This document shows, piece by piece, positions 2,572 to 23,859 of a stretch of 64,000 nt of DNA (position 1 is its first letter; each line of letters begins with the position of its first letter). Below the pieces are notes generated by a model, which saw nothing but the letters and a program-made list of their open reading frames with translations, was not told where the DNA came from and did no database searches. The stretch is from contig JANQMN010000066.1 in NCBI GenBank assembly GCA_028280065.1, forward strand, positions 62,001-126,000, in the 5' to 3' direction. The stretch is from Hahella sp. (lineage in GTDB: Bacteria > Pseudomonadota > Gammaproteobacteria > Pseudomonadales > Oleiphilaceae). The position numbers were made by a program, and so were the translations under genes.

Positions 2572-3459
2572 ATGTCAACCGACGCACTAAATCTGTCGGA
2601 AGAGCTTATTCTGGTCGACGAAGAAACGGCGACCCAAGTAGTCAAGGGAATGTCGCTACCGCCACAACCCCAAATCATGCAAGACATAACTGCAGTTCAT
2701 CCGGACATAGACGCGATCAGCAAGATAGTTCTGAAAGATCCTGCCGTTATCGGAGCAATTATCAAAACCATTAATTCCGCGGCCTTTCGAAGGGCGCGCG
2801 AAATCAAATCAGTAAAACAGGCCATAGTCATGATGGGGCTGGAAAGCGTCATCAACATTATCAATGCCGTGCTTTTTAAGAGCGCTGTCGGCAGCCGCTT
2901 GTCACCGGAAGATTTACAGGATTTCTGGACCTGCACTAACGATGTTGCCGTTGCCAGTGTAACCATTGCAAAAGAACTGAATTTCAACCGTCCGGACCAT
3001 TTTTATCTCGCCGGGCTGTTCCATAACTGTGGAATTCCCATGATGATGGAAAAATTTCCCAACTATAAAACTGTGATAAAAAAGATCTACGGACAAAACC
3101 AGCACCCGATGACAGCCGTGGAAAATCACCTGTATAAGACCAACCATACAGTCGTCGGGCTGTTCATCACCCGCTCATGGAAGTTACCAAAAGAAGTACA
3201 GCAGGTTGTAAAGCACCATCATGATCTCCCGTTCATTCGAGAGCAACTGAAGCAGGAGAGCCATCTGGCTAATCTGCTCTGCGCCTGCAAAATGGCAGAG
3301 GAAATCGGGAAAGAGTCTGTCCAGTTGGGGCATCAAAGGATAGATCATGAATGGCAGGTTTTAGAAGAGGATATCTTAAATTACCTAGGCATCGCTGAAA
3401 TTCAGTATGAAGACATTAAGGAATCAGCGGTGGAAGCGATACAGGCGTCCTACAGCTGA
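2572..3459 (+). CDS. HDOD-domain signalling protein
   Basis: A 295-residue cytoplasmic protein. The N-terminal two thirds show the HDOD pattern: LPPQPQIMQDI, then a helical stretch with DPAVIGAIIKTINSAAF, then SVKQAIVMMGLESVINII. The HD-type metal ligands are degenerate (HNCG instead of HDIG), as is normal for this non-catalytic family. HDOD proteins act as regulators in signalling, motility and biofilm circuits; the partner cannot be told here. Start chosen at ATG 2572 (MSTDALNLS) rather than the upstream TTG. The next gene downstream on this strand is the histidine kinase at 3728. Confidence 0.85.
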   Translation: MSTDALNLSEELILVDEETATQVVKGMSLPPQPQIMQDITAVHPDIDAISKIVLKDPAVIGAIIKTINSAAFRRAREIKSVKQAIVMMGLESVINIINAVLFKSAVGSRLSPEDLQDFWTCTNDVAVASVTIAKELNFNRPDHFYLAGLFHNCGIPMMMEKFPNYKTVIKKIYGQNQHPMTAVENHLYKTNHTVVGLFITRSWKLPKEVQQVVKHHHDLPFIREQLKQESHLANLLCACKMAEEIGKESVQLGHQRIDHEWQVLEEDILNYLGIAEIQYEDIKESAVEAIQASYS

Positions 3460-3727
3460 ACCGGTTATCTTTTACTGGCTCTTGGTTGCTTGTTTCTGGC
3501 AGAATTGGGTTTCTTCCAGCTGGCGACATATATTTATAACAGCTTGCAGAACCAGCTACAGCCTCGGCAAAGGCAGCGCTCAGATTGGCGGATACAGAAA
3601 GAGTTGGTAATCGCAGAATTATCAAGCAACACTCTTAAACTGGCAGCTTTCATGGCTTGAACGGCGCGGTTGCCTGACATGGGAATGCATAAAGATAAAA
3701 ACTGGAAGCGAGATCTCTGCAAAAACA

Positions 3728-5179
3728 ATGAAAGAATCGCTAAAAAGACTGTTTTACTATTGTTTGACCTGGCCGCTGCTCCTGCAAAGCCATACCGTTA
3801 GCGCCGGATTACTGGCATATTTCAAGGACGAAGATGGACACACGAACTGGCAATATGTAGCCAACTGGTCCAGCGGCATCCTCATTCTGTTATTGTCCAT
3901 TACCGCCACTATTCTGTTTTTCAGCCGGCGTCAGATTAACTTCTCCAACCGTGCTCTCAAACTTATTAACGATGAACTGGAAGAACGGGTGCGGGAACGA
4001 ACGGCGACGCTGGATGACAGCAACAAACTGTTGAAAAAAACCAACAGCCTGCTGGAGGGCGAGATCGCCCAACACCTGGAAACCACCAAACGTTTGCATG
4101 CCTCTGAAACATATATCAAGAGTATACTGGAATCGATGCCGGTTATGCTGGTGGGGCTGGACAAGGCTGGCAAGGTGACGCAGTGGAACAAATGTGCCGA
4201 GACCATTACCGGTTTGAAGGCAGACGACGCCTTGCATGAAAACCTATGGGAAGCCTACCCGATTATGCCCGTGGCTAAAGAACAGGTAGAAGAAGCATTG
4301 CGGGACAGCAAAGTCCTGACCATGCGGAAGAGCCAGCGCGGTCATTTTCATTACGACATCACCCTGTATCCGCTGGAGGCCGGCGTCGTAATCCTGGTGG
4401 ACGATGTCACTCGGCAGGTTATTTCGGCGAATCAACTGGTGCAAAAAGACAAAATGTCCTTTATGGGGGAACTGGCCTCTACGATGGCCCATGACATTAA
4501 CGCGCCATTGAAAACCATCGCTAAGGACATCGATTCCGTGAAACGGCAACTGGTCAACCAGCAGTGTTTGGATGACGAGGTAACCAACCAACTGATGGGC
4601 TGGCTTACCGATGCCGGCGACCATAGCCATCATGCCTCGGCCATTACCAGCAATCTGCTACAGTTTGCCGTCAGCCAGGGCGACGAAGAACAGCCTGCCA
4701 GTATTCCCGATATCATGGATCAATCCCTGGATCTGGCTTCGAACATTTTTTCCATCCCGAATGGCCTAAAGTTTACCGACATCCTAATTGAAAGAGACTA
4801 TACCCAGGCGCTGCCACAAGTCGCTTGTTTCGCCTCGGAACTGCAACAGGTATTCTTCAGCCTACTCCGGCATTCCTTCTATGCATTAACGAAAGCCGCT
4901 GCAACGACTCCGAAGATTAAGGTTCAGATTCTTGAGGAGTTCGGCGCACTTTGGATTCGAATCCACCACAATGGAAGATCGCTGTCAGATCAGGAACAGA
5001 AACATATATTTGAACCCTTTTTCGGCAGTGCGCCCAAGGGCCCGGAAGACGAATTTGAAGCGAGTAACCGTCTGTCGTTTTCTTTCTTTATCATTACCGA
5101 ACATCATGAAGGTCAAATGGCGGTTACATCCGACGCCAACACCGGCACCACATTTCATATGCAACTGCAAGTCCACTGA
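3728..5179 (+). CDS. Membrane PAS-domain histidine kinase with degenerate ATP-binding domain
   Basis: A 483-residue protein: signal-like N-terminus, one membrane helix (about residues 49-66), a coiled coil (75-125), a PAS domain (about 127-235), an H-box (MAHDINAPL, His255) and an ATPase-like region (360-480). The catalytic boxes are decayed. The N-box reads LLRHSFYAL with His382 where Asn is expected. The G1 box reads HHNGRS with the adenine-binding Asp lost, and the G2 glycines (446-455) are replaced by SNRLSFSF. It may therefore be a phosphoacceptor, scaffold or phosphatase rather than an autokinase. There is no adjacent response regulator; a GH13 enzyme follows after 41 bases on the same strand. 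Confidence 0.8.
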   Translation: MKESLKRLFYYCLTWPLLLQSHTVSAGLLAYFKDEDGHTNWQYVANWSSGILILLLSITATILFFSRRQINFSNRALKLINDELEERVRERTATLDDSNKLLKKTNSLLEGEIAQHLETTKRLHASETYIKSILESMPVMLVGLDKAGKVTQWNKCAETITGLKADDALHENLWEAYPIMPVAKEQVEEALRDSKVLTMRKSQRGHFHYDITLYPLEAGVVILVDDVTRQVISANQLVQKDKMSFMGELASTMAHDINAPLKTIAKDIDSVKRQLVNQQCLDDEVTNQLMGWLTDAGDHSHHASAITSNLLQFAVSQGDEEQPASIPDIMDQSLDLASNIFSIPNGLKFTDILIERDYTQALPQVACFASELQQVFFSLLRHSFYALTKAAATTPKIKVQILEEFGALWIRIHHNGRSLSDQEQKHIFEPFFGSAPKGPEDEFEASNRLSFSFFIITEHHEGQMAVTSDANTGTTFHMQLQVH

Positions 5180-18512: not shown

Positions 18513-18642
18513 CTCTGAAACCAAATCGTCAACGAAAATAACGGCGTTATCCGCCCTGGCTGACCTCTATCCTTTTCCTTTGAGGTTGGATATTGAAGCG
18601 GCTGACGAATATTCATCCGTTGACGGTGATCAGGAGTGTCCT

Positions 18643-20271
18643 ATGAGTAACCCCAAGACCGATCTGGAATGGTGGCGCGGCGCCGTTATCTATCAGATTT
18701 ATCCACGCAGTTTTCTCGATTCCAATAATGACGGCATGGGAGATTTGCCGGGAATCACCGCAAAAATGCAGTACATTGCCGATCTGGGCGTTGATGCCAT
18801 TTGGCTATCGCCGTTTTTTACCTCGCCGATGAAGGATGCCGGTTACGATGTCTCCAACTACCGCGATGTCGATTCAATTTTCGGTACTCTGGAGGATTTT
18901 GATCGGCTCATTGGCAAAGCCCATTCCTGCGGTATCAAAGTTATCATCGATCAGGTAGTCAGCCACAGTTCCGACGTCCACCCCTGGTTTATCGAAAGCC
19001 GCTCCAGCCGCACCAATGCTAAAGCGGACTGGTATGTCTGGGCCAATCCGAAGCCCGACGGCTGCCCCCCCAATAACTGGATGTCCGTGTTCGGCGGGTC
19101 TGCCTGGAGCTGGGATAGCCGCCGCCGGCAGTATTATTACCATAACTTCCTGGCCGCCCAACCGGATCTGAATTTCCATAACCCCGAAGTAATTGAGCAA
19201 GTCCTGAAAGATTTGGAATTTTGGCTGGCAAAGGGTGTGGACGGCTTCCGTCTCGATGCCATCAACCACAGTTTCCATGACAAGCTGTTGCGGGATAATC
19301 CGCCAAATCCGGCAGCCGTGGATGGCACTTCCGGCGTCCGTGCCGATAATCCCTACGCATATCAGCGCCATAAGTACGACAAGACCCAACCGGAATGTCT
19401 GGAATTTCTGGTCAAGTTGCGTAAGCTGATCGACCGCTATCCGGGCACTACCACGGTGGGCGAAATTGGCGACGACAATTCTTTGCAGACCATGGCGGCA
19501 TACACATCCAATGGCGATAAGCTGCATATGGCGTACTCGTTCGACTTTCTGACCGACAGTTGCGATAGCGAGTTCATCAAAGGCAAAGTGGAATCGATTG
19601 AAGCCGGTTTGGCCGACGGCTGGCCCTGCTGGGCAATGGGCAACCACGATGTGGAAAGGGTTATGTCCCGCTGGGCTAAAAATGACCAGGCGCGCGCCCG
19701 GCTATATATGGCCATGCTGCTTACCCAGCGCGGCAGTGTCTGTATTTATCAGGGAGAGGAGCTGGGACTGGAAGAGAGTCAGCTGGAGTTCAAGGATTTG
19801 GTGGATCCCTATGGCATTGCCTTTTGGCCGGAATTCAAGGGCAGAGATGGTTGCCGGACACCACTTGCCTGGTCGCCTGAGCAAACTCATGGCGGCTTCA
19901 GCGAGGTCAAACCCTGGCTTCCGGTTTACTCTAATCACTTACCGGCGTCAGTAAGCGTTCAGGAAACGGATCCTGGTTCGATGCTGCAATGCTATCGTGA
20001 GTTCATCAAATGGCGGCATAACCAGCCGGCATTGTTAAAGGGCGATATCAGGTTTTATAAGAGTCCCGGAAATACCTTGCTGTATAGCCGAACCTTTGCC
20101 GGTCAAACGCTGCTGATCGCATTAAACTTCGCCAACTTGTCCGTATCGGTCCCCGTCAATCAACGCACTGCCGAGGTGGCGGAACAGCTCATGGTGACCA
20201 CGGGCTCCTGGCAAAAGGACAAAGTCGATCTTCCTCCCTACGGCGTCGGCATCGCGACAGTGACCGGTTAA
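18643..20271 (+). CDS. Alpha-glucosidase / oligo-1,6-glucosidase-type GH13 enzyme
   Basis: A 542-residue cytoplasmic enzyme without a signal peptide. It begins WWRGAVIYQIYPRSF, typical of the oligoglucosidase branch of GH13. The QPDLNFHNPEV segment is the conserved region V of this branch. Catalytic residues are Asp205 (GFRLDAIN), Glu274 (VGEIGDDN) and Asp336 (GNHDVERV). It should release glucose from maltose, isomaltose or other small alpha-glucosides. I chose ATG 18643 because AGGAGTG precedes it; the longer frame from 18580 has no site. It stands alone with its own promoter. Confidence 0.92.
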   Translation: MSNPKTDLEWWRGAVIYQIYPRSFLDSNNDGMGDLPGITAKMQYIADLGVDAIWLSPFFTSPMKDAGYDVSNYRDVDSIFGTLEDFDRLIGKAHSCGIKVIIDQVVSHSSDVHPWFIESRSSRTNAKADWYVWANPKPDGCPPNNWMSVFGGSAWSWDSRRRQYYYHNFLAAQPDLNFHNPEVIEQVLKDLEFWLAKGVDGFRLDAINHSFHDKLLRDNPPNPAAVDGTSGVRADNPYAYQRHKYDKTQPECLEFLVKLRKLIDRYPGTTTVGEIGDDNSLQTMAAYTSNGDKLHMAYSFDFLTDSCDSEFIKGKVESIEAGLADGWPCWAMGNHDVERVMSRWAKNDQARARLYMAMLLTQRGSVCIYQGEELGLEESQLEFKDLVDPYGIAFWPEFKGRDGCRTPLAWSPEQTHGGFSEVKPWLPVYSNHLPASVSVQETDPGSMLQCYREFIKWRHNQPALLKGDIRFYKSPGNTLLYSRTFAGQTLLIALNFANLSVSVPVNQRTAEVAEQLMVTTGSWQKDKVDLPPYGVGIATVTG

Positions 20272-20297
20272 ACACCTTTCGAATTGGCCGATCTCTG

Positions 20298-20325
20298 CAG
20301 GCTGGCATGCAAACGTGTCAGCCTG
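20298..20325. promoter_or_regulatory. Inverted repeat: activator site or weak terminator
   Basis: CAGGCTG and CAGCCTG form a perfect 7-bp dyad with a 14-base spacer. It starts 26 bases after the glucosidase stop and lies about 150-180 bases before the -24/-12 promoter. Either it ends the glucosidase message (no T-run follows), or it is the upstream site for a sigma-54 activator. The distance fits the latter. Confidence 0.35.
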
Positions 20326-20450
20326 ACAGCTTTGCGCCCTGAATTAGTGCCCGGTGAAAAGTAATGGGGCAAGGATATTTGTTCAAAGCTTTTAAGAACC
20401 ATTGCAGATTCAGGCAATAAGGTCACACAGAAATACAACTCATTGATTTA

Positions 20451-20463
20451 AATAAACAAATTA
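20451..20463 (+). promoter_or_regulatory. IHF-like site
   Basis: AATAAACAAATTA matches the IHF core WATCAANNNNTTR with one mismatch. It lies between the inverted repeat and the -24/-12 promoter, in an AT-rich patch, where IHF usually bends DNA to bring a sigma-54 activator to the polymerase. Confidence 0.3.
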
Positions 20464-20477
20464 TTGTCCTGCGAAAC

Positions 20478-20494
20478 TGGCACGAGAGATGCTT
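20478..20494 (+). promoter_or_regulatory. rpoN-dependent: Sigma-54 (-24/-12) promoter
   Basis: TGGCACGAGAGATGCTT matches TGGCACRNNNNTTGCW with one mismatch. The invariant GG and GC are separated by exactly 10 bases. The predicted transcript starts near 20504 and runs toward the terminator at 20621-20652, with no annotated gene in between. Confidence 0.55.
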
Positions 20495-20503
20495 TACTAG
20501 AAT

Positions 20504-20652
20504 CAGTAAAGAAAGCAGTCGCTCTGCTTTTCAGGCAAATGCAAACACCTACTTTCTTTACCTATAGTCATGATGTCGTATTATCGATGATGACTGTTAC
20601 CTCTACGCTCGTGCCTTATACCTCACCTGGGTTATCCTCGTGAGGTTTTTTT
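20504..20652 (+). ncRNA. Candidate sigma-54-dependent small RNA, about 149 nt
   Basis: The region between the -24/-12 promoter and a strong terminator folds well. GTAAAGAAAG (20506-20515) pairs perfectly with CTTTCTTTAC (20552-20561). An alternative hairpin shares its left arm: AAAGCAG (20512-20518) with CTGCTTT (20524-20530), 5-base loop. A second stem-loop pairs AGTCAT (20566-20571) with ATGACT (20590-20595). The 3' end is the terminator stem and T7. The two mutually exclusive 5' folds suggest a switchable RNA. A 34-codon frame with a poor ribosome site (AGG only 3 bases before ATG 20539) could make it a small mRNA instead. I do not recognise a named family; sigma-54-driven RNAs such as GlmY, Qrr and CrcZ are the functional analogy only. 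Confidence 0.45.
20621..20652 (+). terminator. Strong intrinsic terminator
   Basis: CCTCAC and GTGAGG form the stem, with extra pairing inside the 13-base loop, followed by seven Ts. The orientation is plus only; it ends just before the stop of the convergent gene at 20662. Confidence 0.85.
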
Positions 20653-20661
20653 GTCCCGATC

Positions 20662-21798
20662 TCAGCCGAGCCGCTTATGCAACCAGGCCAGCCAGGCAGA
20701 TTCAAATTCAGACATCCCGCCCGCATAATGCCGCCCTATATAGTCAGCCGGGTTAATGGCAAGACAGGGCGTTTGCGCCAAGTCGGTCAAGATACCCAAT
20801 AGTACCGGCTTGGCTTGGGGGTTCTGTAACAGAAAAGAAGCCAGCGCCCAAGCAGTGGTATACATCAGTTGCGGATCACCCGCCTGCCAGGCGCCGGGTG
20901 AAAGTGCCAGATAGTCCTCAAGCGCCGGAAAAGCGCCGTTTTGCAACAGGTTTTTAGCGTCTCGCACAAGCCAGGCAGCCGGAATGAACTCCCGGCTCAA
21001 TGCGAGGTTACGATAATCCGCAAAGGCTTCAGCTAAACCTTCATTCAGCCATATCGGGGTTAAACCGTAAAGCCCTGCCATGATTACATGAGTCGCTTCA
21101 TGGCGTGCAACTCTTTTGGTAAGTTCTTCCACCGGCTGGCGAAAAACCACCGCTTCATTATTCAGCGCCGAGTAAAATCCTGCCGCACCCTGCAAATTTG
21201 GCGCATGAGATTGCTGATAGTGGGCAAATGCCTGTTTGGCATTAAATATCTTGAGATTGAGTTTGACCTTACGTAGATGGTCGAGCGCTAACTCATCAGT
21301 AAGATAGCGATAGATTGCGCGGATATCCCGATCCAATTGCTCTTTTAACAGCGGCGGGACAGAGCCATCCGGTGAAACCACGTGCAAATCAAAGAATTCC
21401 TGTTCCGTGACATATTTATGACTAAGATTCCTGGCGTTTGCATTTTCCGGCGGACTATCGGAAAAATGCATCTTTCCGTTGGCGTCGATCCAGGTGTAGA
21501 TCTGGCTGCCGGCGGCTTCCTCTATGGCCTCTGTTTTCGGTTTTATGCAATTAAACTGCTGGGCTATCTGGTGAAGATTATTACCGGCTTGTACCACGAT
21601 AGGGTTGTCCGGCGCCGCATCCTCCGGTCCGGTGGCTTCGCTGGTTCGGACTTTTGGCAAAGCCGTCAATAGTTCTTCGACCTTTTGCTCCATGCCTGTT
21701 TGAGTCAGTATTGCCTGCCGCTGCTCAGGTTTCAGAATTTGCCAGGATATGGCCATGCAGCCGAACACAACCATCAGAAACAGCAAAAGGTGCTTCAC
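20662..21798 (-). CDS. DUF4124-containing gluzincin metallopeptidase-like protein
   Basis: A 378-residue protein with an N-terminal membrane or signal segment (HLLLFLMVVFGCMAIS). A DUF4124 domain follows at about residues 96-128 (IYTWIDANGKMHFSDSPP). The C-terminal peptidase-MA-like domain has HEATH at 233-237 as the HEXXH zinc motif. WLNEGLAE 16 residues later supplies the third ligand, Glu253. The spacing and sequence fit DUF1570/gluzincin proteins. I chose GTG 21798 because AGGAG lies 6 bases upstream; the upstream ATG at 21909 would add 37 unrelated residues. It probably acts in the periplasm on envelope proteins or peptidoglycan-linked substrates; the substrate is unknown. Confidence 0.78.
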   Translation of the reverse strand: MKHLLLFLMVVFGCMAISWQILKPEQRQAILTQTGMEQKVEELLTALPKVRTSEATGPEDAAPDNPIVVQAGNNLHQIAQQFNCIKPKTEAIEEAAGSQIYTWIDANGKMHFSDSPPENANARNLSHKYVTEQEFFDLHVVSPDGSVPPLLKEQLDRDIRAIYRYLTDELALDHLRKVKLNLKIFNAKQAFAHYQQSHAPNLQGAAGFYSALNNEAVVFRQPVEELTKRVARHEATHVIMAGLYGLTPIWLNEGLAEAFADYRNLALSREFIPAAWLVRDAKNLLQNGAFPALEDYLALSPGAWQAGDPQLMYTTAWALASFLLQNPQAKPVLLGILTDLAQTPCLAINPADYIGRHYAGGMSEFESAWLAWLHKRLG

Positions 21799-21999
21799 GG
21801 GCCACTCCTGCTCCAGGGAAGCGAAACAATGGTAAGGAACTTCACTATAAACCAAAGCAAAGTGCATTAGACCCAGAAACCTCGCTGTTTTCTGTCTTTT
21901 TGTAATCAATTGTTAAGCTAGTCAAGGATTCGTGAGGCAAGTTCGGTTAGCCTTCCTGGGCTATTCTTTATCCTAAAAGGCAGGCGGACTCCATTCTCA

Positions 22000-23859
22000 A
22001 TGATTAAATCGTTATCAACCATTTCTTTCGTCTTGCTCCTGACCCTCGGCGGTTGTGGCGATGGCAACAATCCCCTTCCGGAAGAGACGGAGCGCCCCTT
22101 GACTCCGGGCCCCGTAGGCGATGATCCCGGCGACTTCGAAGGCCGGATTATAGCCGAACAACCTATCCAGGACGCCACTCTGTGGCTGGATATCAATTCC
22201 AATTATCAATGGGATAGCGATGAACCGCGTGCAACCTCCGATCCCGACGGTCGCTATATCTTCTCTTCCGCTGCCGTGGCGGCTTTCGGTTCGCCGCGCC
22301 AGTATCCGCTGGTCGCTCACGCACTCCCAGGGGTCAGCAGCATTGCCGGTAATCCAGTAGAACGGGGATTCTTCCTAACCGCGCCGCCAGGGAGTACCGC
22401 TGTTACGCCTCTTACCACCTTGATCATGGCTGAATCCGCCGTCCTCGCGAGAGATGGCACTGCGTCCACCTATGGCGATGCCCATGATCGACTGCGGGTC
22501 AGAACCGCCTTAAGCGAGCCCGATCTGACAATCAACTTTCAACAGGACTATATTGCGCTGCCGGAAGGCGCTAACGTGCAGTCCCTGGCCATGGCTTACC
22601 TCCAGGCGTTGCAAAATCTCTTGGCTGTCAATTTTTCCGTGACGTCCGGATTGTTGACCGAGCTTGACCGCCAAATGGTGCTGGCATCACAAGCGGCGCT
22701 ATTGAAAAGCAGTAAAACCATCATGGAAGCCGTTTACCCCTTGGCCAGTCCGTCTGACGAAGGAGCAGATGCAGACCAGGAGGACCCGGAACGCACGACC
22801 GTCAACTTGACCGGGTCGGATCCTGTGCTCCAGCTCCAGGTTGAACTCGACAATCCCGAGGTCCTATTTCAGGTCCTCCGCTATACTTCGGCAAACAGTT
22901 CAAGCGTTCAAGTGGAGGATCAGCTTCGCAATACCACTTTCCTGTATCCCATTCCCACTTCCGAGCGCATTCAACCGGAACAAAGCAGTCCCGTGCTGGG
23001 CACTCCCCTTGCCCCTTCGGCCTTTTTGAGCAATACCCAGCTCAACAGTATTACCGAGTATCACTATCAAACCGATGCCAGCCTTGAGGAGCTCAGATTA
23101 GACGGCGGGACCGACCTGCTGTTCAAGCCTGTTTCCAGCAGCCAGGTGGTAACGGATACCCGGTTTGATCCATTCAGCACAGAGTTGCTGCGCGCTGACG
23201 GAGATTGGGATTTAATCAGCCGGATCAGCTTATCGGAAGAGCAGGTTCCGATCCTGGAACTCGAAGAGCCGGATAATGGGGAGCTGACAGAAATTAACCA
23301 GTTATTGACAAAAAGCGCTGTTGTTATTGCCTTTGACGACGACCTGTTGCTGGGAACTTCAAGCGTCTCGCAAAGTTTTGGGTCTATCTCCGGCTCGCTC
23401 CTGCTAGCGCAGCGCTACCAGTTCGAGCAATTCCAAGGCGCACAACGCCTAATCCAATTTGATCTGGAAACCGGCTACGACCGATTAATGGAATTCTCAT
23501 GCTATAGCGGCGCGCAATTAACCGCGATTTATGTTGTCGACTCTACCCCGGCAGTATCTCCCTGTATCAGCCCACCACCCGAGTTCTACATGGTTGGCCG
23601 CTATTATGGGCTGGAGAACGGACTTGCCGCCCGGTGCTATCAATATCCCGCGCTAAGCAGCGGAATTTACTGTGAGATTCCTGTCGCCGACCAGCTTGGA
23701 CGGGTAGACTACACCGTTATCGAAAAACGCATTACCAGCGGCTTGCCCGAGGAATTTACCTATTCCGGCCCGGACCAAAGTGAGGTCATCGGGATTACCG
23801 ACTACACTTACAGACCTTTATCGGATGCGATGTATCTAGACCTGGATACAGAAGAATAA
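22000..23859 (+). CDS. Large lipoprotein of unknown function
   Basis: A 619-residue protein whose leader ends in the lipobox LGGC. An N-terminal Ig-like or carboxypeptidase-regulatory-like domain (about residues 45-105) has the pattern ATLWLDINSNYQWDSDEP and a YIFSS strand. This is a type used in surface proteins to carry a calcium-dependent or structural fold. The rest is rich in beta strands without known motifs, with a few cysteines near the C-terminus. It is divergent from the protease gene and monocistronic by spacing. Function unknown. Confidence 0.7.
   Translation: MIKSLSTISFVLLLTLGGCGDGNNPLPEETERPLTPGPVGDDPGDFEGRIIAEQPIQDATLWLDINSNYQWDSDEPRATSDPDGRYIFSSAAVAAFGSPRQYPLVAHALPGVSSIAGNPVERGFFLTAPPGSTAVTPLTTLIMAESAVLARDGTASTYGDAHDRLRVRTALSEPDLTINFQQDYIALPEGANVQSLAMAYLQALQNLLAVNFSVTSGLLTELDRQMVLASQAALLKSSKTIMEAVYPLASPSDEGADADQEDPERTTVNLTGSDPVLQLQVELDNPEVLFQVLRYTSANSSSVQVEDQLRNTTFLYPIPTSERIQPEQSSPVLGTPLAPSAFLSNTQLNSITEYHYQTDASLEELRLDGGTDLLFKPVSSSQVVTDTRFDPFSTELLRADGDWDLISRISLSEEQVPILELEEPDNGELTEINQLLTKSAVVIAFDDDLLLGTSSVSQSFGSISGSLLLAQRYQFEQFQGAQRLIQFDLETGYDRLMEFSCYSGAQLTAIYVVDSTPAVSPCISPPPEFYMVGRYYGLENGLAARCYQYPALSSGIYCEIPVADQLGRVDYTVIEKRITSGLPEEFTYSGPDQSEVIGITDYTYRPLSDAMYLDLDTEE

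Follow-up and report, generated by a model that had tools for sequence, protein, structure and literature searches.

The window analysed here, a 64-kb stretch of Hahella DNA, contains a gap without genes at positions 20272-20661, flanked on the left by a gene of the GH13 alpha-amylase family (18580-20271) and on the right by a convergent DUF4124 gene on the minus strand (20662-21909). A small regulatory RNA, present in Hahella and one relative, is in all likelihood encoded in this gap. The predicted RNA, of about 149 nt, lies on the plus strand at 20504-20652, its start being taken from the spacing to the -12 element, with the C of the -12 GC counted as position -12, and its end from the terminator. 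The same unit is found once per genome in 7/7 Hahella genomes and in one MAG (G010) from another genus of the same family, with predicted RNA lengths of 101-165 nt. Common to all eight copies are the promoter, a 5' part that is paired, a 25-nt block without any variation, in which the ~20 nt on the 3' side are mostly unpaired, and a terminator.

The RNA is preceded on the plus strand by a sigma-54 -24/-12 promoter, TGGCACGAGAGATGC, at 20478-20492, which bears out the promoter type assigned to this gap in a preliminary description. With the -12 element relaxed to WTGC, a relaxation picked after the site was seen, it is the sole match in the window, where 0.08 are expected. It is also the sole window match at one mismatch to TGGCACGN4TTGC; as 1.75 such matches are expected by chance, the promoter match alone proves little and would fit a promoter-like site arisen by chance, together with the ends of the adjacent genes, and no genuine transcript. 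The observation is raised above chance by the recurrence of the whole unit in eight genomes. The -24/-12 elements are present with the right spacing in 8/8 copies, where TGGCA[CT]-N6-TGC stands 79-118 nt ahead of a conserved 20-mer, and promoter, block and terminator recur together despite differing neighbours, which makes a chance origin extremely improbable. In addition, the stretch 20200-20760 contains two sigma-70-like sites, against 0.7 expected, and one of these falls within the RNA, at 20557-20584.

With regard to these neighbours, genes were listed for four of the seven other genomes, namely CCB-MM4, ganghwensis, G001 and the MAG. The downstream gene is of the DUF4124 type in CCB-MM4 and ganghwensis (by eye in the latter), resembles the gene at window positions 22000-23859 in G001 (by eye) and is SMP-30/strictosidine-synthase-like in the MAG. 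Upstream, a small membrane-protein gene is found in CCB-MM4, ganghwensis and G001 (by eye in the last two), with a Frag1 match just under the cut-off for the CCB-MM4 protein, and an AstE/AspA-type gene lies past it in CCB-MM4 and directly upstream of the RNA in the MAG. The GH13 gene is absent beside the RNA in all four of these genomes, which suggests an insertion or rearrangement. The RNA thus appears to be tied to its place and not to the alpha-glucosidase gene with which it had initially been associated.

The predicted fold of the window RNA is more stable than those of dinucleotide shuffles (z -3.05, with 2/200 shuffles as stable). In the centroid fold, a first plus-strand hairpin, SL1 (20506-20561), is closed by the arms GTAAAGAAAG (20506-20515) and CTTTCTTTAC (20552-20561), which form the perfect 10-bp stem described previously, and across the copies the predicted start falls within 1-2 nt of the 5' stem base. 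The third pair of SL1, compared by hand, is A-U in the window, G-U in ganghwensis and CCB-MM4, and G-C in the HN01-like copies. It is followed on the same strand by a second hairpin, SL2 (20563-20597, outer arms ATAGTCAT and ATGACTGT), likewise noted before. The invariant block ACTGTTACCTCTACGCTCGTGCCTT (20593-20617, plus strand), in which 25/25 columns are identical in 8/8 sequences, is mostly unpaired from 20599 and is the proposed pairing region. Identity among four clade representatives is 1.00 in a 20-column block versus 0.26-0.88 in other blocks, and the mean paired probability of the conserved 20-mer is 0.32-0.43, versus 0.58-0.71 for the RNA ahead of it. The unit ends in an intrinsic terminator, ACCTCAC...GTGAGGT-T7 (20620-20652, plus strand), whose lower stem is paired in 97.6% of cells, with two pairs changed on both sides. 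A simple terminator scanner listed none here, probably due to the 13-nt loop, as its loop limit is 8.

The minimum-energy fold of six Hahella copies consists of SL1, SL2, an exposed segment and the terminator. In the window copy, SL1 and SL2 appear in the centroid fold, and the minimum-energy fold has an alternative 5' hairpin with part of the exposed segment paired; this alternative, included in the preliminary description as a feature of the RNA, is predicted in the window copy only. For the MAG copy a single compound hairpin is predicted, with GTGACAG paired to the CTGTTAC that belongs to the block. On the model-fitted alignment, pairing is found in 92.6% of cells, versus 27-45% in slid controls. 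With regard to the compensatory changes that had been suggested as a check of the stems, 4 pairs are changed on both sides and 0/500 shuffles reach that number. The covariation score is reached by 1/500 shuffles, and the measure of further pair types by 487/500; these pair counts come from 7 distinct, closely related rows, in an alignment fitted to the model.

NtrC recognises a dyad with the consensus TGCACY-N5-RGTGCA, located roughly 100-150 bp upstream. A scan with this consensus (TGCACYN5RGTGCA) over the 250 bp before the TGG of each copy, evaluated with 300 first-order resamples, places the start of the best NtrC-type dyad 124-143 bp before the TGG in 8/8 copies. In the window it corresponds to CGCCC-T-GAATT-A-GTGCC (20335-20351, plus strand), a probable enhancer. 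The dyad has 1-2 mismatches in the four HN01-like copies (resampling P 0-0.01) and 3 mismatches in the window, ganghwensis, CCB-MM4 and the MAG (P 0.25, 0.18, 0.17 and 0.23, respectively), so that the window dyad alone is not significant. About 20 bp, or two helical turns, past the dyad lies GGGGCA (20366-20371, plus strand), a possible half-site whose GGGCA is invariant in 8/8 alignment rows, and in two copies a weak second dyad match is found 20 bp from the first. The dyad at 20298-20325 (CAGGCTGGCA/TGTCAGCCTG, 90%), to which the role of activator site had been given, does exist, but by eye nothing similar is seen in the seven other upstream sequences; an inverted-repeat scan requiring 7 perfect pairs missed the window's own dyad and is no test of its conservation. 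The candidate for a conserved activator site is, judging from these comparisons, the NtrC-type dyad at 20335-20351 and not that at 20298-20325.

Between dyad and promoter, IHF-type sites are present in the seven Hahella copies. The one in the window, AATCAATGAGTTG (20436-20448, minus strand), is a perfect match to WATCAAN4TTR and starts 42 bp before the TGG; 4 perfect matches occur in the window, against 2.7 expected. The IHF-like site reported earlier at 20451-20463 is also there, 27 bp before the TGG, but carries one mismatch. In the six other Hahella copies the site has 0-1 mismatch and lies 29-30 bp before the TGG. The best IHF-type site reaches P 0.003-0.04 in 6/7 Hahella copies and P 0.27 in CCB-MM4, and the MAG is without a good site (P 0.71).

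The RNA is probably switched on by the sigma-54 machinery in a response of the nitrogen-stress type, as far as these sites can tell. The genome encodes NtrC (TIGR01818, 767 bits, cut-off 558.6), with the RNA on contig C30 and ntrC on C4, 11 bp from the next listed open reading frame. A glutamine-synthetase-like gene and the ntrB-like gene (labels by eye) are preceded by NtrC-type sites with one mismatch, and sites at up to two mismatches are common (583 versus 224 for the control). A second glutamine-synthetase-like gene, eukaryotic-type by eye, is found near glnA-ntrBC with an upstream NtrC-type site of its own (C4:16027-16043); the glutamine-synthetase-like genes of contig C4 are located at L056:287-1297 and 2635-4164. 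At least 19 TIGR01818 matches in this genome cover the AAA+ part of the model, so that another activator is possible: the RNA could be driven by sigma-54 under a different enhancer-binding protein, of the GlrR, CbrB or other type, and answer to carbon, envelope or other signals. The weakness of the NtrC-type dyad in 4/8 copies would agree with this. However, in a scan that covered NtrC among the enhancer-binding proteins, the position of the best dyad is shared by 8/8 copies, four of which have 1-2 mismatches, and sites of the same form precede the glutamine-synthetase-like and ntrB-like genes mentioned above, and control by another such protein is considered unlikely, if still a serious alternative to NtrC.

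The distribution of the RNA seems to be narrow. In a DNA search of 58 genomes, eight matched, namely the own genome, six congeners and one from another genus of the family, and of 163 family genomes these eight, and no others, have an exact copy of the 20-mer GTTACCTCTACGCTCGTGCC, one apiece. In 17 further family genomes the 20-mer has 2-3-mismatch places only, and among 390 genomes of the order, at up to 2 mismatches, three match, of which one is the own exact copy and two have 2 mismatches. These near matches were rejected as relatives: 21 places at 2-3 mismatches in the family compare with about 41 for a reversed-pattern control, and 2 places at 2 mismatches in the order with 3, and an alignment of all 23 reveals by eye no common flank or terminator, so they were taken as chance. 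A scan of 84,980 species genomes for the exact 20-mer retrieved four stretches, from Hahella ganghwensis, Hahella CCB-MM4, Hahella HN01 and the MAG (JAUIAZ010000285.1), and none beyond Hahella and the MAG; it covered contigs of at least 3,000 bases and may omit near relatives of the window. The 20-mer was not found in viral contigs.

A covariance model built from five copies retrieves the MAG copy, which was outside its building set, with 35 bits. In 163 family genomes the model finds the same eight and 4 weak matches (E 0.01-0.08), and in 390 genomes of the order the own copy and 3 weak matches (E 0.002-0.006). Neither search gave a convincing extra copy; filtering was stricter in both, with only 10 or 26 candidates scored per genome among those listed, and weak relatives may be missed. 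The 7 weak matches are read as chance or plain terminators: five (L140, L142, L143, L146 and L147) rest on an ordinary terminator hairpin, and two (L141 and L145) rest on neither terminator nor block.

No Rfam family reaches its gathering score anywhere in the window, in agreement with the earlier impression that the RNA is unlike remembered families. When E values up to 10 are admitted, 6 weak matches appear in the gap, of which 5 lie on the opposite strand and the strongest is to a microRNA family (20.4 bits, cut-off 63); four homologous loci yield 2, neither at the RNA. Rfam includes models of GlmZ, Qrr and CrcZ. GlmY and GlmZ in enterobacteria and Qrr in vibrios, which pair with mRNAs in the case of Qrr, are sRNAs also driven by sigma-54, and they are not among the matches to the Hahella gap at E up to 10.

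The possibility that the gap holds a short peptide gene was considered both for a 34-codon frame, whose conservation at codon level had been named as evidence against an RNA, and for other frames across the invariant block. The 34-codon frame is not conserved across the copies. Across the block, 8/8 copies have two open frames, one of which reads TVTSTLVP in each, and in ganghwensis this frame has a GTG after an SD-like GGGAAG. Neither of the two keeps its starts and ends among the copies: in the four HN01-like copies the RNA offers no start codon for the TVTSTLVP frame, which stops right after this motif, and starts and ends differ among the remaining ones. The block contains no synonymous change. 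A peptide gene is thus barely plausible on this evidence. The terminator at 20620-20652 and the lack of a conserved reading frame support the earlier reading, namely a non-coding RNA that carries a terminator of its own.

The traits of a trans-acting base-pairing sRNA, a conserved exposed segment and an own terminator, are both present. The exposed segment, ACCUCUACGCUCGUGCCUUA, contains ACCUCU, which resembles an anti-Shine-Dalgarno sequence and makes translational repression the likeliest mode of action. Target scans were run on seven genomes against a reversed-pattern control, with loci taken from up to 30 places per scan, and neither a 20-nt wobble pattern nor three 9-nt sub-segments before ATG gave a target common across clades. 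The complement of the full 20 nt, allowing wobble and at most 2 mismatches, has 28 places (7 RNA loci excluded) versus 23 in the control, and the sub-segments CGTAGAGGT, TAGAGGTAA and GCACGAGCG followed by ATG have 31 versus 43, 32 versus 42 and 51 versus 48, some of the last being tandem repeats. Comparison of 53 loci from the 20-nt and CGTAGAGGT scans yielded one strong cross-clade pair, L103/L108 (58%), rejected as a common target because the matches sit inside unlike coding stretches, and four between-genome pairs at 25-29% identity (L079/L116, L079/L126, L081/L100 and L099/L127). Among 60 loci from the TAGAGGTAA and GCACGAGCG scans, all pairs fall within G001, G002, G004 and G005.

A candidate target is seen in 4/7 genomes, all of one clade, where the 11-nt complement TAGAGGTAACAATG marks the start of a secreted-type protein of 194 aa. 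This protein is preceded by TTAGAGGTAACAATG at L158, L165, L166 and L167 (G005, G004, G001 and G002, respectively), with a perfect 11-nt complement of the conserved block over the ribosome-binding site. A separate observation concerns GCACGAGCGCAATCGCATG, which recurs every 603 bp or a multiple thereof in G005:C1:6543846-6545673 and G001:C1:6649826-6651653 and in G005 lies inside a glycine/aspartate-rich repeat protein, pointing to long near-identical tandem repeats. When the ntrBC/glnA stretch was scanned for duplexes, no noteworthy one was seen at the gene starts that were tried (labels by eye). The best duplex there (-29.5 kcal/mol), which was discarded, lies roughly 550 bp ahead of a typA/bipA-like start and on the opposite strand.

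The scans of seven genomes, with no conserved target, together with an invariant block of 25 nt, which is long for a pairing seed, would also agree with an RNA that titrates a protein, as CrcZ does with Hfq and GlmY with RapZ, the block then being the protein site. This appears quite unlikely, since no Rfam family scores and the exposed segment has by eye no repeated motif such as A-rich repeats. An sRNA driven by NtrC, IHF and sigma-54, which would act in trans by pairing with mRNAs, is the reading favoured here, with moderate confidence. Its basis is the promoter, the position of the dyad, the conservation of the RNA, its predicted structure, the terminator and the lack of a conserved reading frame, from which we infer expression, activation by NtrC, base pairing, repression and the existence of targets. 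Under nitrogen limitation, phosphorylated NtrC would bind the dyad at 20335-20351, perhaps together with the half-site at 20366, and, with the DNA bent by IHF, would activate sigma-54 RNA polymerase at 20478-20492. Transcription would start near 20504 and stop at 20652, and the RNA would fold into SL1, SL2 and the terminator, leaving ACCUCUACGCUCGUGCCUUA mostly exposed. This segment would most likely pair with ribosome-binding regions of trans-encoded mRNAs and lower their translation, and the sRNA may in this way form an arm of the nitrogen response that switches genes off.

Known systems offer several parallels. In Pseudomonas, NrsZ is an NtrB/C- and RpoN-dependent sRNA of ~226 nt, which is processed and encoded between ntrC and PA5126 (PMC8395346). 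The Hahella RNA is likewise a stand-alone intergenic sRNA with proposed NtrC/RpoN control but, unlike NrsZ as described there, has ~149 nt and lies on a different contig from ntrC. The two would work alike and are apparently unrelated, to judge from the 20-mer, for which the scan of 84,980 species genomes gave exact matches in Hahella and the MAG alone. CrcZ and CrcY of Pseudomonas depend on CbrB, IHF and RpoN, and CrcZ has ~407 nt with A-rich Hfq motifs (PMC8395346). The Hahella RNA shares the sigma-54 and IHF promoter plan with this pair but, in contrast to CrcZ as portrayed in that source, it has no series of A-rich motifs by eye and no Rfam match. In the alphaproteobacterial genus Sinorhizobium, NfeR1 is a nitrogen-linked trans-acting sRNA in an NtrBC loop, repressed by NtrC and activated by LsrB (PMC10746234). 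Both RNAs would be nitrogen-linked and trans-acting in the present proposal, whereas NtrC is, according to that source, a repressor in the case of NfeR1. In the literature collection searched, the titles and abstract openings of Hahella papers on small RNAs or NtrC contain no report of such an RNA.

A more specific proposal, to which slightly less than an even chance is given, is that the RNA represents a family of Hahella sRNAs driven by NtrC, IHF and sigma-54 and not described before. This family would stand in for NrsZ as the RNA component of the response to nitrogen stress and repress a set of mRNAs through an invariant exposed segment of ~20 nt. For the genus Hahella, the finding provides a regulatory RNA that can be tested and for which both a signal and a start site are predicted. 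Furthermore, it is one more case, apparently unrelated to the others, of a regulatory RNA driven by sigma-54 and is thereby relevant to how frequently such RNAs emerge afresh.
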